The notes beneath the pieces are model-generated. The model was not told where the DNA came from and searched no databases. It saw only the letters and a list, made by a program, of their open reading frames with translations. DNA of 51,221 nucleotides from Faecalibacterium sp. An121 (lineage in GTDB: Bacteria; Bacillota; Clostridia; Oscillospirales; Ruminococcaceae): assembly GCF_002160915.1 (NCBI RefSeq), contig NZ_NFLM01000018.1, positions 1-51,221 on the forward strand, in the 5' to 3' direction. A program made the translations under genes and the position numbers. Each line of letters opens with the position of its first letter. Positions within the stretch are counted from its first letter, which is position 1. This document shows positions 4,021-50,900 of this stretch, piece after piece.

Positions 4021-4923
4021 TCAGGAACGGGGTTTCCAGCGGCGCATGACCCCCACGCCCAGGGGATAGGGTCCGGTGTGGACGGCGATGGTGGCCCCGA
4101 TCTGCAGCAGGCCCACTTCACAGCTGCTGTCCGGATACCGGGCCCGCAGGGCGGCGCGCAGCTGCATCCAGAACCGCCTGCCCTCCTCCACATCGTAGCC
4201 ATAGCCCACAATGATGCGGTAGTCATCGGGGTCGGCGTTGCGCTCGGCCAGATAGCCCAAAAGCTGTTCGATGGCCTTTTCCATGCTCTTTTGGCGGCCC
4301 CGGGCCATCCCGCCCGAGAAGATCTCCCCCTCGGCAAAGTGGATCATGGGCTTGACGTTGAGCAGGTTGGCTGCGCGGCCGGTCACCTTGCCGATCCGCC
4401 CTCCCTTGATCAGATAGTCCAGGTTGCCCACCGTGAAGAAGATCTGGTTGGTGGGGCGGGTGCCCTCCAGCCAGGTCAGGGTGTCGGCCAGGGTGCAGCC
4501 GGCGTCCCGCATGGCGGCGGCATTCTCCACCGTGGCGCCCTCGCTGACGGTGGCCGCGGCGGTGTCCACCACCTCGATGACCGCGTCGGGGTAATCCTCC
4601 AGCACCAGCTGGCGGGCGTTGCGGGCACTGCCCACGCCGCCGCTCATCTTGCCGGTAAAGCACAGGCACAAAACCGGCCGGCCCGCTGCCGCCCGGGGCC
4701 GAAAGACCTTTTCAAAGTCCTCCAGGGAGGGCAGGCTGGTCTTGGGCAGGACGGCGGGCTGGTCCACCATGAACTGGTAGAAGTCCCGCACCGGCATCTC
4801 CTCCCCTTCTTTCAGGTAGGTCTGGCCGTCGGTGGAGACATAGAACGGCACCACCGTCACGTCCAGGCGGACGATCTCCTCCCGGGGCAGGTCGCAGGCG
4901 CTGTCAGTAATGATATCGAACAT
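4021..4923 (-). CDS. DegV family fatty-acid-binding protein
   Basis: This 300-residue cytoplasmic protein has the DegV signature opening IITDSACDLP and the family layout of an N-terminal domain (TVVPFYVSTDGQTYLKEGE) and a C-terminal domain (GGRIGKVTGRAANLLNVKP). DegV-type proteins bind fatty acids, and some (FakB) hand them to the FakA kinase; no fakA is visible here. In the fatty-acid site region the usual SSGLSGT-like loop reads FTGKMSGG, still with a Ser-Gly pair. The gene begins 37 bases after purA on the same strand, so the two may be co-transcribed. I see no terminator between its stop and the next promoter. Confidence 0.88.
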   Translation of the reverse strand: MFDIITDSACDLPREEIVRLDVTVVPFYVSTDGQTYLKEGEEMPVRDFYQFMVDQPAVLPKTSLPSLEDFEKVFRPRAAAGRPVLCLCFTGKMSGGVGSARNARQLVLEDYPDAVIEVVDTAAATVSEGATVENAAAMRDAGCTLADTLTWLEGTRPTNQIFFTVGNLDYLIKGGRIGKVTGRAANLLNVKPMIHFAEGEIFSGGMARGRQKSMEKAIEQLLGYLAERNADPDDYRIIVGYGYDVEEGRRFWMQLRAALRARYPDSSCEVGLLQIGATIAVHTGPYPLGVGVMRRWKPRS

Positions 4924-46301: not shown

Positions 46302-47546
46302 TTATCGTTTCCGGGCCTGCCGGGCGGCAGCGCGGCCCGCCACCAGTCCGGAGCCAAAGGCCCAGTGCAGGTTGAAACCGCCGCAGCTGCCCGCGCAGTC
46401 CAGCGTCTCCCCCACAAAGTAAAGCCCCGGGCACCCCTTGAACTGGAAATCCGGCTCCAGCTCCTCCAGCGACAGGCCGCCCCCGGTGGTCTGGGCCTGC
46501 TTCCATCCGCAGGGGGCAGGGTCTTCAAAGCGCCAGCCCTTGCAGACCTCCGCCAGGGCCTGCCAGCCCCGGGCATCCACCTGGGCGGGAGCGCGGCCTG
46601 TCAACCCTGCCGCAGCCCAGAGGGCGGCGCCCAGCCGCCCATCCAGCAGGCCCTGCCAAAAGGCCTGGCTGTCGGGCAGATGACCCGCCCTGCGGGCAAA
46701 TGCGGTAATAAACTCACGCGTTTCTACAGTTGGGAATAAGTCCAGCGCCACAGCGGGCTTTTTTGGGCCCCGTCCGGGGGCCAGCAGCCCCGACAGCTGC
46801 ATGACGCAGATGCCCGACAGCCCGTAGTTGGTGAACTGGATCTCCCCTTCCTCCCGGGCCAGGGACCGTCCATCCTCCAGCAGGGTGACGGCGCCCCGGG
46901 CGCGAAGCCCCGACAGCCTCTGCATCAGGACCGGGTCGCCGCAGCGCAGAGGGGTCAGACAGGGGTACAGAGGCTCGACCCGGCCGCCGCACCGGCCCGC
47001 CAGGGCGGGTCCAAAACCGCCGGTCCCAAACTGCGGCCCGGCGCTGCCGCCCAGCGCACAGATCACCCGTCCGGCCGTCAGCAGCTGCTTTTGGCCTGCC
47101 GCCTCCACACGGACGGCATAGCCGCCCCCCTTCTGCCCCAGCTCCAGCACCCGGGCAGCGCGCCGGTCCACACCCAGGGCATTCAGCCAGCGCACCAGCA
47201 GACCGGTGAGATCGGCGGCCTGGTTGGAGTAGGGATACAGCCTGCCGGTCTCATCCGCACGGGACACCAGGCCCAGCTCCTGCCACCAGGCAGACAGCCC
47301 GGCTCCGTCGATGGAGGCCAGCAGTTTTTGGAGCGCGGCGGGGGCTGCGGTGAAGTACCGCGCCGGATCGCTGCTGGCAGCGTTGTCGAAATTGCAGCGG
47401 CCATTGCCGGTGGCCAGCAGCTTTTTGCCGGGGGCGGCGTTCTGCTCCACCAGGGTGACTTTCGCCCCGGGCCCGCCGGTCTGGGCCGCAGCGATGGCGG
47501 CCGCCAGCCCCGAAGCACCCCCGCCCAGCACCAGGATCTCTCTCAT
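46302..47546 (-). CDS. BaiN/HI0933-family flavoprotein (NAD(P)/FAD-dependent oxidoreductase)
   Basis: This 414-residue protein has an N-terminal Rossmann FAD site (LVLGGGASGLAAAIAAAQ, residues 6-23), the family segment NGRCNFDNAA, and a C-terminal FAD motif in GLYFVGETLDCAGSCGGFNLHWAFGSGLVAG. That combination is typical of the HI0933/BaiN group (YtfG-like 'aminoacetone oxidase' annotations are common). The substrate is unknown; bile-acid reduction is reported for one member only. The ATG at 47546 follows AGGAGGGG. It is monocistronic. Confidence 0.9.
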   Translation of the reverse strand: MREILVLGGGASGLAAAIAAAQTGGPGAKVTLVEQNAAPGKKLLATGNGRCNFDNAASSDPARYFTAAPAALQKLLASIDGAGLSAWWQELGLVSRADETGRLYPYSNQAADLTGLLVRWLNALGVDRRAARVLELGQKGGGYAVRVEAAGQKQLLTAGRVICALGGSAGPQFGTGGFGPALAGRCGGRVEPLYPCLTPLRCGDPVLMQRLSGLRARGAVTLLEDGRSLAREEGEIQFTNYGLSGICVMQLSGLLAPGRGPKKPAVALDLFPTVETREFITAFARRAGHLPDSQAFWQGLLDGRLGAALWAAAGLTGRAPAQVDARGWQALAEVCKGWRFEDPAPCGWKQAQTTGGGLSLEELEPDFQFKGCPGLYFVGETLDCAGSCGGFNLHWAFGSGLVAGRAAARQARKR

Positions 47547-47578
47547 CTTCTCCCCTCCTGTGTCTATGGTACAGGGCA

Positions 47579-47607
47579 AGTATACCATACCGCGGCGGCC
47601 GGCGCAA
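47579..47607 (-). promoter_or_regulatory. promoter of the BaiN-type gene
   Basis: Reading leftward, TTGCGC (47602-47607), 17 bases, TATACT (47579-47584), with extended -10 TATGGTATACT. The -35 falls inside the end of the 3' neighbour's intergenic spacer. Confidence 0.65.
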
Positions 47608-47612
47608 AGGGG

Positions 47613-48380
47613 TCAGCGCGGATCCCGCAGTTCGGTCATATCGGCCCAGAACCGTTTGGGGCAGTGGGTGCGCCGGCAGCGCTCGTTCCGCCGCTGGTCG
47701 ATGGCCAGCGTGTCATAAAATCGTTTCCACAGCCGCTGGTAATCGCTTTCCTTCTGGCTGGGCCGGGGCAGGTCCAGCGGGGCGCTCAGCCTGAGGATGC
47801 GGGCCTGGCCCTGCTGATGCACCAGCGCTTCCCGGTGGACCGCGTCGTAGATCAGGAAGGCTTCCTCGGGCATCCGGCTGCAAAAATGGCGGCCCAGCAG
47901 GGGCAGCACATGGTTTTTGGGGTGGATCACTGCGCCCAGCATCCCGCCGCTTTCCTCAAAGCGGACAAAGCCCTGCCATTTTTCCACTTCCCACAGCACC
48001 TGGCGGGACAGACGGCAGGCATCGGCCACCTCGGGACGGCCCAGCTGATGGAGCGCCCCCGGCCCGGCCCCGAACCCATAGTGTAAAAAGCGGAGCAGGA
48101 TCAGCTCTTTCTCCTCCTGCCCCGACAAAAAGCCCACCTCCACCGTCTGGCCGGCAGACAGCTTGGACCGCACCGCCCGGCGCACCCGGGCTGCCCGGTC
48201 GGGGTCGGTGGGGATCTGCCGCACCGGACAGAGGGCGGGCTGCTCGTCTTCGGGCGCCCAGATGGCAAAGGGGATCTCGCGGTGGACAAAGCTCTCAAAC
48301 ACGCAGCTGTAAAAGCCCGCCAGGGTGCCGTCGTAGCCGTAGATCAGATCGGCCTGCCTCACAGGGCTTTTGCCAGACAT
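47613..48380 (-). CDS. TIGR03915/DUF4130-family probable DNA metabolism protein
   Basis: This 255-residue protein matches the family found beside a radical-SAM partner. The N-terminus has the typical YGYDGTLAGFYSCVFESF, and a C-terminal part runs RLSAPLDLPRPSQKESDYQRLWKRFYDTLAIDQRRNERCRRTHCPKRFW in outline. In many bacteria this module is fused to a uracil-DNA-glycosylase-like domain (TIGR03914); that domain is absent here. The gene overlaps the radical-SAM gene by 22 bases, so the pair is co-translated. Function is inferred from association: DNA repair or modification. Confidence 0.85.
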   Translation of the reverse strand: MSGKSPVRQADLIYGYDGTLAGFYSCVFESFVHREIPFAIWAPEDEQPALCPVRQIPTDPDRAARVRRAVRSKLSAGQTVEVGFLSGQEEKELILLRFLHYGFGAGPGALHQLGRPEVADACRLSRQVLWEVEKWQGFVRFEESGGMLGAVIHPKNHVLPLLGRHFCSRMPEEAFLIYDAVHREALVHQQGQARILRLSAPLDLPRPSQKESDYQRLWKRFYDTLAIDQRRNERCRRTHCPKRFWADMTELRDPR

Positions 48381-49717
48381 CGGACTGCCTCCTCCTGTAC
48401 AAGACGGCCGGCCAGGCGGGGCTGCATCCCACCGGCGGCCAGCTGCTGGACGGCGGGGGCGCTGAACAGGCTCAGCTGTTCACATCCCCCATTGAACACC
48501 TGAGGGTCCACCAGAGCCTGGGCGATCTGCTGACGCCGCTGGCTGCCGCAGCCACCTCTGGCCCCGGTAAACCCTCTGCATACGATAAAATATTGGGCGC
48601 GCTTGAGCACCACGCCCATCTGTTTGAGCTCGTCCAGACCAAGCGCGCTCTGGCGGCGGGCAGTGCGGATGCGCTGGGCGCTCTTGACCCCGATGCCGGG
48701 CACCCGCAGCAGCATCTCATAGGGGGCGCGGTTGACGTCCACCGGAAACTGCTCCAGATGGCGCAGGGCCCAGCCGCATTTGGGGTCCAGGTAGGGGCTG
48801 AAATTGGGGCTGCCTTCGTCCAGGATCTCCTCCGCCCGGAAGTGATAGAACCGCAGCAGCCAGTCGGCCTGGTACAGCCGGTGTTCCCGCAGCAAGGGGG
48901 GCTTGGTCTCCAGGGCGGGCAGACGGCTGTCCTCCGCCACCGGGATGTAGGCCGAGAAAAACACCCGTTTGAGGCTGTATTTCTGGTACAGGCCCTGGGT
49001 CAGCCGCAGGATCTGGTAGTCACTCTCGGGGGTGGCCCCCACGATCATCTGGGTGCTCTGGCCCGCAGGGGCAAAGGCGGGCGCATGGCGATAGAGCGCC
49101 ACCTCCTGACGGCTGGCAGCGGCAGCGGCGGCGATCTGGCCCATAGGGCGCAGGATCGAAGACCGGCCCTTGTCAGGGGCCAGCCGTTTCAGACTGCCTT
49201 CACTGGGCAGCTCGATGTTGACGCTGAGACGGTCGGCCAGGCATCCCAGCTGGGCGATCAGCTCAGGGCTGGCACCCGGGATGGCCTTGGCATGGATATA
49301 GCCATTGAAATGGTAGCGATGCCGCAGCAGGCGCAGCACCTCCAGCATCCGCTCGGTGGTATAGTCGGGGGTGCCCACCACGGCGCTGGACAGGAACAGC
49401 CCCTCGATATAATTGCGGCGGTAGAACTCGATGGTCAGGTCGGCCAGCTCCCTCGGGGTGAAGGTCGCCCGGGGCAGGTCGTTGCTGCGCCGGTTGACGC
49501 AGTAGGCACAGTCGAAGGCACAGCAGTTGCTCATCAGCACCTTCAGCAGACTGATGCAACGCCCGTCGGCGGTAAAGCTGTGGCAGCATCCGGGCGCATA
49601 GCAGCTGCCCAAATGTCCGGCACGGCCCCCGCGGCCCGACCCGCTGGAGGTGCAGGCCACATCATATTTCGCACTGTCGGCCAATATGGTCAGCTTTTCC
49701 ATCACCGACTGTTCCAT
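48359..49717 (-). CDS. radical SAM DNA repair/modification protein (TIGR03916 family)
   Basis: This 452-residue protein belongs to the radical-SAM family linked to uracil-DNA glycosylase-like proteins. It opens with KLTILADSAKYDVACTSSGS. The 4Fe-4S cluster motif CAFDCAYC lies at Cys66/70/73, followed by VNRRSNDLPRATFTPRELADLTIEFY, all close to the family pattern. A helix-hairpin-helix DNA-binding motif (LLRVPGIGVKSAQRI) sits near residue 340. It presumably makes a radical for chemistry on DNA, but no substrate is established. The ATG at 49717 follows GGGAGGG. It starts 24 bases after the S24 repressor gene, so all three probably form one operon. Confidence 0.9.
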   Translation of the reverse strand: MEQSVMEKLTILADSAKYDVACTSSGSGRGGRAGHLGSCYAPGCCHSFTADGRCISLLKVLMSNCCAFDCAYCVNRRSNDLPRATFTPRELADLTIEFYRRNYIEGLFLSSAVVGTPDYTTERMLEVLRLLRHRYHFNGYIHAKAIPGASPELIAQLGCLADRLSVNIELPSEGSLKRLAPDKGRSSILRPMGQIAAAAAASRQEVALYRHAPAFAPAGQSTQMIVGATPESDYQILRLTQGLYQKYSLKRVFFSAYIPVAEDSRLPALETKPPLLREHRLYQADWLLRFYHFRAEEILDEGSPNFSPYLDPKCGWALRHLEQFPVDVNRAPYEMLLRVPGIGVKSAQRIRTARRQSALGLDELKQMGVVLKRAQYFIVCRGFTGARGGCGSQRRQQIAQALVDPQVFNGGCEQLSLFSAPAVQQLAAGGMQPRLAGRLVQEEAVRCLAKAL

Positions 49718-49741
49718 CCCAAAATGCCCTCCCGGGGGCGC

Positions 49742-50374
49742 TCACCACTTGGTCTTGGTCTCCACCACGCGCCCCGCGATGTGGAGCCGGTTCAGGTCCT
49801 CGCCTTTGATGACCAGCTCGCTGTAATTGGGGTTGAACGGCTGGAGCACCACGCTGTTTCCCCGCTGGATATAACGCTTGAGGGTGCCTTCGCCCTCATC
49901 GCCGTAAATGATGACCCCCAGGTCCCCGCTCTCCAGGGTATCCTGACGGTGGACCAGGGCCAGATCGCCGTCCTGGATGCGGGGTTCCATGCTATCTCCC
50001 CGCACCACCAGATAAAAGTAATTGGCCGGGTCCTTGACCCGCGCGTATTCTTTCCCGTAGTCCTCCTCAAAGGCCAGCGCGCCATAGCCGGCCTTGACGG
50101 TGCCGATCACCGGGATCAGGCTCTCGGCATAGCCGCCAAAAAAACGGCTCTCGGTCTCGGTCAGATCGGCGGTGGGGCGGTACAGCCCCAGCAGATAGTC
50201 CGCCGTGGTGCCCAGGATCTCCGCGATCTGCGCCACCGTGGCCGGGTCGGGAGAGGATTTGCCGCTCTCCCACTTGCCTACGGCCTGCTGGGTGACCCCC
50301 AGGCGGCTGGCCAGCTCGGCCTGGCTGATGCCATGCTGCTTGCGGCACTGCTTCAACAGCTCAGAAAATGACAT
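49742..50374 (-). CDS. XRE-S24 LexA/CI-like self-cleaving repressor
   Basis: This 210-residue repressor joins an N-terminal XRE helix-turn-helix (about 5-60, with ISQAELASRLGVTQQAVGKWESGKS) to a C-terminal S24 peptidase domain. The cleavage site is Ala95-Gly96 in TVKAGYGALAF. The catalytic Ser is 128 (RGDSMEP) and the Lys 166 (TLKRYI), with spacing close to LexA. By analogy it should cut itself when RecA filaments form on damaged DNA. ACAA-N7-TTGT-like sites lie inside its own promoter. It heads an operon with the radical-SAM pair. Its stop is in frame and nothing suggests decay. Confidence 0.93.
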   Translation of the reverse strand: MSFSELLKQCRKQHGISQAELASRLGVTQQAVGKWESGKSSPDPATVAQIAEILGTTADYLLGLYRPTADLTETESRFFGGYAESLIPVIGTVKAGYGALAFEEDYGKEYARVKDPANYFYLVVRGDSMEPRIQDGDLALVHRQDTLESGDLGVIIYGDEGEGTLKRYIQRGNSVVLQPFNPNYSELVIKGEDLNRLHIAGRVVETKTKW

Positions 50375-50390
50375 ATCGGAACGCCCCTTT

Positions 50391-50405
50391 ACAACCGGTT
50401 TTTGT
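50391..50405. promoter_or_regulatory. candidate operator O1 of the S24 repressor
   Basis: ACAACCGGTTTTTGT fits ACAA-N7-TTGT. It lies at and just downstream of the predicted start of the repressor transcript. Confidence 0.5.
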
Positions 50406-50412
50406 TATTTCC

Positions 50413-50441
50413 ATTATACAACCAAAAAGTGTTTCTGTAAA
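50413..50441 (-). promoter_or_regulatory. promoter of the repressor/radical-SAM operon
   Basis: Reading leftward, TTTACA (50436-50441), 17 bases, TATAAT (50413-50418). Operator O2 fills the spacer and O1 covers the start. Confidence 0.8.
50418..50432. promoter_or_regulatory. candidate operator O2 of the S24 repressor
   Basis: ACAACCAAAAAGTGT fits ACAA-N7-TTGT with one mismatch. It sits between the -35 and -10 of the repressor promoter, 27 bases from O1. Confidence 0.45.
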
Positions 50442-50482
50442 GTGTATTTCATCGAAAATGAGAAAAAAAGTTGTATTTCCTC

Positions 50483-50511
50483 TTGACATCCACCAAATTT
50501 TGGTTTATCAT
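50483..50511 (+). promoter_or_regulatory. promoter of the divergent 91-residue protein
   Basis: TTGACA (50483-50488), 17 bases, TATCAT (50506-50511). The spacer contains the near-palindrome ACCAAATTTTGGT. Operator O3 lies a few bases after the predicted start. Confidence 0.75.
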
Positions 50512-50523
50512 GGAGGCAAGCAA

Positions 50524-50538
50524 ACAACCTGCGGTTGT
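50524..50538. promoter_or_regulatory. candidate operator O3, perfect palindrome
   Basis: ACAACC-TGC-GGTTGT is a perfect 6-bp inverted repeat and the best of the three ACAA-N7-TTGT sites. A further GGTTGT half-site follows at 50545-50550. Repressor bound here would block the small membrane protein gene. Confidence 0.6.
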
Positions 50539-50578
50539 CTTTTCGGTTGTGAAACCACCTGGAGGAGGTCCCAACGAT

Positions 50579-50854
50579 ATGAAGTGCCTGTTTTGGAAAT
50601 CCCTCGTTCTGACCATTGGCCTGGGCATGATGCTGGCCCTGGGCGCTTTTGCGGAAGGCAGCATTTCTTTGCCTTTGGCTTGTGCTCTCTGTTACGGAGG
50701 GGTGCAGGCCATCCGTGCGGCATGGGCCATGGAGCAGCGTGCAGAACATTCCGCCCGCCGCCCGGCATCGGTCCGCCCGAAAGCCAGACAGCCAGTCCAG
50801 CCGGCCCCCCGCTCCGCCACTGGCAGCCAAGACCCTTTGCAGGCGGCTTCTTAA
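50579..50854 (+). CDS. 91-residue membrane protein, unknown
   Basis: This small protein has GGAGGAGG about 10 bases before its ATG and a consensus-like promoter. Two hydrophobic segments (about 7-25 and 28-48) are followed by a basic, Pro/Arg/Ala-rich tail (residues 55-91) that is probably cytoplasmic. I know no family for it. It is divergent from the self-cleaving repressor and shares its operator type, so it is probably induced with it. Small membrane proteins under SOS-type control often delay division or act as toxins, but nothing in the sequence proves that here. Confidence 0.75.
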   Translation: MKCLFWKSLVLTIGLGMMLALGAFAEGSISLPLACALCYGGVQAIRAAWAMEQRAEHSARRPASVRPKARQPVQPAPRSATGSQDPLQAAS

Positions 50855-50856
50855 TA

Positions 50857-50900
50857 AAACGCCCCGCCTCTCTCCGGCTTGGCCGGAAAGGGGCGGGGTT
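50857..50900. terminator. bidirectional terminator after the 91-residue gene
   Basis: CCCCGCC pairs with GGCGGGG around an inner stem CCGGC/GCCGG. TTTGTGTTTTT follows rightward and CGTTTTATT leftward. The rest of the window (50901-51221) has no gene I can support. It holds a possible leftward promoter (50978-51005), a GGCCGGCC-AAAC-GGCC hairpin near 51091-51110 and an AGGAATA/TATTCCT repeat at 51176-51195. Confidence 0.75.

Follow-up and report, generated by a model that had tools for sequence, protein, structure and literature searches.

What does a self-cleaving repressor govern when it stands between two DNA-repair genes and a divergently transcribed gene for a small membrane protein? The question is raised by contig NZ_NFLM01000018.1 of Faecalibacterium sp. 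An121 (Ruminococcaceae; assembly GCF_002160915.1), of which positions 1 to 51,221, a stretch of 51,221 nucleotides, constitute the window analysed here. A first-pass annotation had read these four genes as a local SOS-like cassette. We find that the conserved genes, residues and operators support a unit of repressor, repair pair and membrane gene, but that the local scope was too narrow: the repressor is very probably a non-canonical LexA, i.e., a CI-type helix-turn-helix (HTH) joined to a LexA-type S24 peptidase, and the SOS repressor of its lineage. Because operators lie upstream of recA and uvrB and canonical LexA is missing, it is likely to be a cell-wide SOS regulator rather than a switch for its own cassette. 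The four genes are as follows:

47613..48380, minus strand: TIGR03915/DUF4130 gene, 255 amino acids, from the open reading frame (ORF) list and the family and Pfam searches
48359..49717, minus strand: TIGR03916 radical-SAM gene, 452 amino acids, with a weak helix-hairpin-helix match
49742..50374, minus strand: repressor with CI-type HTH and S24 peptidase, 210 amino acids, with Ala95-Gly96, Ser128 and Lys166
50579..50854, plus strand: small membrane protein, 91 amino acids, with two hydrophobic segments, a basic tail and the end QAAS

The coordinates and family scores bear out what had been claimed of the layout: the radical-SAM gene lies 24 bases from the repressor and overlaps the DUF4130 gene (by 22 bases), and the divergent membrane-protein gene is present as a 91-residue ORF. 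The radical-SAM protein belongs to TIGR03916 with 661.4 bits (cut-off 343.5) and its partner to TIGR03915 with 203.8 bits (cut-off 112.25); no uracil-DNA glycosylase (UDG) domain occurs among the Pfam matches of the latter. Scanning the window for Rfam families and tRNAs returned no matches.

The repressor displays the Pfam domains HTH_3 and Peptidase_S24. The full LexA-type machinery attributed to it by the first-pass annotation holds up, with A95, G96, S128 and K166 being invariant in 24/24 and 26/26 aligned sequences (the two alignments overlap, with the window protein and some relatives in both). It thus has the Ala-Gly cleavage bond and Ser-Lys dyad typical of LexA; its score against the LexA model TIGR00498 is about 66 bits, from the C-terminal part only, and falls short of the cut-off of 110.95. 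The winged-helix domain PF01726 is absent from the repressor, which has HTH_3 instead, and finds no match anywhere in its own genome. This combination of a CI-type HTH with an S24 peptidase that retains the cleavage residues is the architecture of the non-canonical LexA proteins. The closest named repressors are 94–96% identical, all from Faecalibacterium and mostly from metagenome assemblies. In a tree that took in neither HdiR nor the Bacteroidetes non-canonical LexA proteins, the repressors are separate from the two LexA rows; its deeper joins are unsure because of long branches. The own genome also codes for a second XRE-S24 protein (G000:C8:18285-18872), 30% identical to the repressor and situated near what by eye appears to be a ribosomal-protein operon. 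A reading of the locus as a defence system was dropped since the PADLOC matches were confined to the HTH part of the repressor, with none for the other three proteins.

We then surveyed 148 genomes of the family, including the repressor's own (G000; 2.7 Mb in 62 contigs). Of these, 34 have a repressor match at E<=1e-25, and 25 of the 34, own included, have a close orthologue, defined by about 54% identity or more. Canonical LexA, taken as a full-length protein over the TIGR00498 cut-off, shows a complementary pattern. A match over the cut-off is found in 83/148 genomes, one of which (G142) covers only the C-terminal part, leaving 82. These comprise just 2 of the 25 genomes with a close orthologue, compared to 80 of the 123 without one (p 1.4e-7); the profile search found no canonical LexA over the cut-off in the own genome. 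The only two genomes with both proteins, G073 and G064, show neither linkage to the radical-SAM gene nor a recA operator, and they fall outside the 22-row repressor clade, in a poorly resolved part of the tree.

The second line of evidence comes from the operator, ACAAC-N5-GTTGT, whose copies in the window are arranged around two promoters:

50391..50405, unstranded: operator-like site with one mismatch to ACAAC-N5-GTTGT, between the repressor promoter and the start codon
50413..50441, minus strand: promoter of the repressor, radical-SAM and DUF4130 genes, TTTACA-17-TATAAT, 11/12 to consensus, layout kept in relatives
50418..50432, unstranded: operator within the repressor-promoter spacer, plus-strand sequence ACAACCAAAAAGTGT, 8/10
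50483..50511, plus strand: divergent promoter of the membrane gene, TTGACA-17-TATCAT, 11/12, with a degenerate operator in its own spacer
50524..50538, unstranded: perfect operator, ACAACCTGCGGTTGT, shortly after the divergent promoter

Of the single promoter with two operator-like sites described earlier, the promoter and both sites stand, but only 50418..50432 lies in the spacer, the other being placed beyond the promoter; the third, perfect site assigned to the divergent promoter was recovered just downstream of it. For the window taken by itself, chance can account for two matches to ACAACCNNNGGTTGT at no more than two mismatches (40/100 shuffles), and the significance of the operator hence derives from the whole-genome count of the exact pattern and from the relatives. 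Between the two promoters (50467-50474) there is also a half-site, with the minus-strand sequence ACAACTTT, that recurs in many relatives.

In the own genome, the exact pattern occurs at three places against none for the control: the cassette, a position just upstream of recA, and the inside of an ORF that by eye is a transport gene. Across the family, recA over the cut-off was found in 23 of the 25 close-orthologue genomes, and an operator matching at least 9/10 positions lies upstream of it in 12 of the 21 that lack canonical LexA (0.14 expected from shuffles). Among named genomes, 10/11 have such a site; the one miss (L224) duplicates a family genome (G018), so that all ten further genomes have it, with the caveat that they are partly close kin and that LexA was not searched in them. 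In contrast, the site was found in none of the 18 LexA-positive controls, which we chose from the LexA search table and six of which had their recA start set by tblastn, and in neither of the two genomes with both proteins. The bias is significant (Fisher, 12/21 vs 0/20, 5e-5; with the ten named genomes added, 1.7e-7). For uvrB, found over the cut-off in 21/25 genomes and scored in 19 (the script did not find the uvrB loci of G101 and G110), an operator of at least 9/10 is present in 5/17 LexA-lacking genomes, with some starts possibly set too far upstream; these include the own genome, where it lies 38 bp before the start. It is present in neither of the two genomes with LexA. Thus, the placement of the operator at the repressor's own promoter and at SOS genes, as expected of a non-canonical LexA, is seen in silico in several genomes and not in every one. 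We left out of the target set those sites in G127, G008, G101, G054, G134 and others whose neighbours, by eye, are recombinase-like, phage-like or unrelated genes. At G110:C26:23117 (L118), an exact operator precedes, by 127 bp, another XRE-type gene, which by its placement in the search has an S24 domain too.

From what is observed in silico, namely the genes, the catalytic residues, the operator placement, the recA and uvrB sites and the absence of LexA, we infer binding, cleavage and induction along the following lines. In undamaged cells, repressor dimers would shut out RNA polymerase by occupying the ACAAC-N5-GTTGT operators of the repressor promoter, those within or shortly past the divergent promoter, and those upstream of recA and uvrB. 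Upon DNA damage, RecA filaments would trigger cleavage at Ala95-Gly96 by Ser128 and Lys166, after which recA, uvrB, the radical-SAM/DUF4130 pair and the membrane protein would be switched on.

A survey of the neighbourhood, which the first-pass annotation had proposed as a check, showed that repressor, radical-SAM pair and membrane gene are conserved over several genera. The radical-SAM and DUF4130 genes lie beside the repressor in 21/25 close-orthologue genomes, in 20 downstream on the same strand at distances of up to about 1.1 kb and in one on the divergent side, compared to 0/9 of the more distant homologues within the stretch fetched. Anywhere in the genome, the radical-SAM gene is found in 23/25 genomes with a close orthologue vs 37/123 others. 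We further kept 80 named loci of the 167 relatives found, some of them from the same assemblies as the family genomes; they span Faecalibacterium, Gemmiger, Fournierella, Pygmaiobacter, Anaerofilum and others. Here, the radical-SAM gene is downstream on the same strand in 61 loci, on the other side in four and not found in 15; in four of these 15 the sequence runs no further than 900 bases past the repressor. The promoter layout is likewise retained, with TTTACA-spacer-TATAAT directed to the repressor, TTGACA-spacer-TA-rich hexamer directed to the membrane gene, and ACAAC-N5-GTTGT in the spacers. The dyad reaches at least 8/10 in 72 of the 76 named loci where the repressor promoter was found by pattern, and in 51 of the 66 where the divergent promoter was found; the score depends partly on the promoter because one dyad letter is shared with the -10 hexamer.

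Departures from the common arrangement suggest that the pair is regulated by the operator rather than merely being a neighbour of the repressor. First, in G101 some 8 kb separate the radical-SAM gene from the repressor; the gene has its own exact operator 47 bp before the ORF, with an opposite-strand gene starting on the other side of that operator. Second, in four Pygmaiobacter loci both repair genes follow the membrane gene on the divergent side. Third, in G025 (the same as L206) a gene that is transposase-like by eye takes the place of the membrane gene upstream of the repressor, with an exact operator beyond it.

Downstream of the pair, the window continues with one further gene on the same strand, for which co-transcription is possible:

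46302..47588, minus strand: HI0933-like flavoprotein gene

An HI0933-like gene is present at only 8/80 named loci, all from Faecalibacterium. In L155, L156, L161 and L173 it follows the repressor directly and the radical-SAM and DUF4130 genes are absent, as though the pair were gained or lost in one block. Three genomes (L042, L043, L045) have a gene of about 210–230 amino acids between the repressor and the radical-SAM gene.

The divergent membrane gene is found in 70/80 named loci, 69 by one filter and one (L221) by another. The other ten are eight Faecalibacterium loci with tRNA-Ser genes, one locus at a contig end (L190) and L206. The tRNA-Ser loci (L164, L165, L167-L170, L172 and L175, with the tRNA genes at about 4050-4290) retain the repressor, radical-SAM and DUF4130 genes. 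The membrane proteins, 78–104 amino acids long, are divergent, with a mean column identity of 27% in their alignment; by hydropathy alone, 64/69 have two hydrophobic segments and 5/69 one, and the tail is net positive in 63/69. Their most constant feature is the C-terminus. A terminal alanine is found in 66 of the 69 distinct proteins vs 17/463 background ORFs, and an Ala-Ala end in 48/69 vs 3/463, the background being ORFs of at least 200 amino acids picked by length in the same loci rather than annotated genes; the remaining three, together with the window's own protein, end in Ala-Ala-Ser. Tails of the ssrA type are read by ClpXP. From these features we infer topology, protease recognition and function: the protein is predicted to form a hairpin of two helices with its tail in the cytosol, where the terminal alanine would act as an ssrA-type degradation signal. 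It is thus a candidate for an SOS effector, undescribed so far, that is probably proteolysed and most likely short-lived. Its likeliest role would be a cell-division checkpoint analogous to SosA and YneA; we propose tentatively that it is a division inhibitor, and otherwise another membrane effector.

The alternative that survives best concerns this protein. It might be a TisB-like toxin or depolarising peptide that makes persisters instead of a division inhibitor, a role with which its small size, hydrophobicity, high divergence and position behind an SOS-type operator would agree. We regard this as rather unlikely in view of its length of 78–104 amino acids, the mostly basic tail and the conserved C-terminal alanine. 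Known type I toxin peptides are shorter. Moreover, its placement divergent from the repressor resembles that of SosA beside lexA (PMC6851548).

Next in strength is an unlikely reading, in which the reach of the repressor ends with its own gene, the repair pair and the membrane gene, much like that of FddR in Francisella, and the operators at recA and uvrB are either incidental or belong to another regulator. G073 and G064, which keep canonical LexA alongside repressor and membrane gene and have no recA operator, fit such a self-contained unit, as do the 9/21 LexA-lacking genomes with no recA operator of at least 9/10. Against it stand the enrichment of the recA operator (12/21 and 10/10 named genomes vs 0/20 LexA-positive ones) and the lack of canonical LexA in 23/25 genomes. 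The same nine genomes also count against a lineage-wide SOS repressor, and other observations do so too: no uvrB operator is found in 12/17 LexA-lacking genomes scored; one-mismatch sites in the own genome number 49 vs 117 for the reversed control pattern; the low dyad scores at the divergent promoter are mostly from Faecalibacterium itself, where the spacer is mostly degenerate; two tRNA-Ser genes replace the membrane gene in the eight Faecalibacterium loci noted above, including F. prausnitzii; the second XRE-S24 protein of the own genome has a higher LexA score than the repressor (95 vs about 65–66 bits); and two of the 25 genomes (G012, G137) code for a nearly full-length LexA-like protein just below the cut-off. 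Given the missing recA and uvrB sites, we take the regulon to vary and perhaps to be small in some clades, and since the one-mismatch scan lies below its control, we drew on it only for promoters already known.

That canonical LexA is present and was overlooked would be favoured by the mostly draft state of the assemblies and by the named Faecalibacterium genomes in which it was not searched. We consider this very improbable: 18/25 genomes are at least 90% complete, the 2-contig assembly G020 has the orthologue and gives no match to LexA at E<=1e-25, and among the 23 genomes with recA scored only the LexA-bearing G073 and G064 lack both the radical-SAM linkage and the recA operator. Finally, we consider it scarcely credible that the repressor was domesticated from a prophage or mobile element, has its neighbours by chance and plays no part in SOS, as the CI-type HTH and 37% identity to a Marinitoga virus repressor might suggest. 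The neighbours named above and the operators are the same across several genera, and the sole 84% match in the phage collection also carries the radical-SAM and DUF4130 genes. That entry, MT839076.1 (L276), is filed as a bacteriophage; with its repressor, radical-SAM and DUF4130 genes it looks like a piece of a Faecalibacterium chromosome filed in error.

Returning to the repressor as the SOS regulator of its lineage, one can sketch, tentatively, how this state might have arisen. An entire gut lineage may have lost LexA after a unit of phage-type repressor and membrane effector had settled and become the SOS regulator; G073 and G064, with both LexA and the unit, might represent the earlier stage, and the effector might constitute a new family of two-helix checkpoint proteins with a C-terminal alanine degron. 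Faecalibacterium is one of the main genera of the human gut. In open-licence PMC we found no paper on an SOS regulator of Faecalibacterium or Ruminococcaceae. If this is one more lineage under a CI-type SOS regulator, beside Streptococcaceae, Bacteroidetes and Francisella, its LexA-bearing intermediates would allow a direct test of how a phage-type repressor captures a global stress network. The concrete operator allows damage induction to be predicted in Faecalibacterium and its relatives, and the membrane proteins form a new family of small proteins in which division arrest can be looked for.

How does this unit compare with known systems, as described in the papers cited? HdiR is a LexA-like S24 repressor of LexA-less Lactococcus and Streptococcus that undergoes RecA-triggered cleavage, clusters with phage repressors and in S. 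thermophilus controls cinA-recA (PMC8565304). By description, the likeness lies in the LexA-like S24 repressor, the lack of LexA and recA among the targets; however, HdiR targets mainly umuC-type genes, as against the radical-SAM/DUF4130 pair, uvrB and the divergent membrane gene here. The same paper, which also reviews HdiR and UmuDAb, presents CI-type SOS regulators in Bacteroidetes. These non-canonical LexA proteins likewise combine a CI-like N-terminal domain with a LexA-type peptidase and an N5-spaced dyad, and their inferred regulon also includes an SplB radical SAM and a COG1573-COG4277 repair operon; this family is reported from Bacteroidetes only (PMC8565304). The radical-SAM/DUF4130 pair is already tied to SOS in the literature (PMC3765255, PMC8565304): DUF4130, an SplB-like radical SAM and UDG have been associated in an SOS context, which involves the same two kinds of repair gene (PMC3765255). 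Unlike in that association, the window protein is without a UDG domain match and a CI-type repressor is in control. FddR of Francisella, a co-opted phage repressor governing itself and a divergently transcribed gene, is similar in organization, and its authors propose that SOS networks grow from divergent units; its motif is GTG-N11-CAC and recA is not induced, whereas here recA and uvrB have operators in part of the genomes (PMC13148647). As to the effector, SosA of Staphylococcus and YneA of Bacillus are small SOS-controlled membrane proteins, with sosA divergent from lexA and its product turned over via the C-terminus (PMC6851548). The membrane gene similarly lies behind an operator and divergent from the repressor; it differs in that SosA and YneA have one transmembrane segment, with the SosA C-terminus being extracellular, whereas the present family mostly has two segments by hydropathy (64/69), a basic tail and a C-terminal alanine. 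Since CI-type SOS regulators are already known, we see in this locus a new case among them, one that differs in its operator, its set of targets and its effector.

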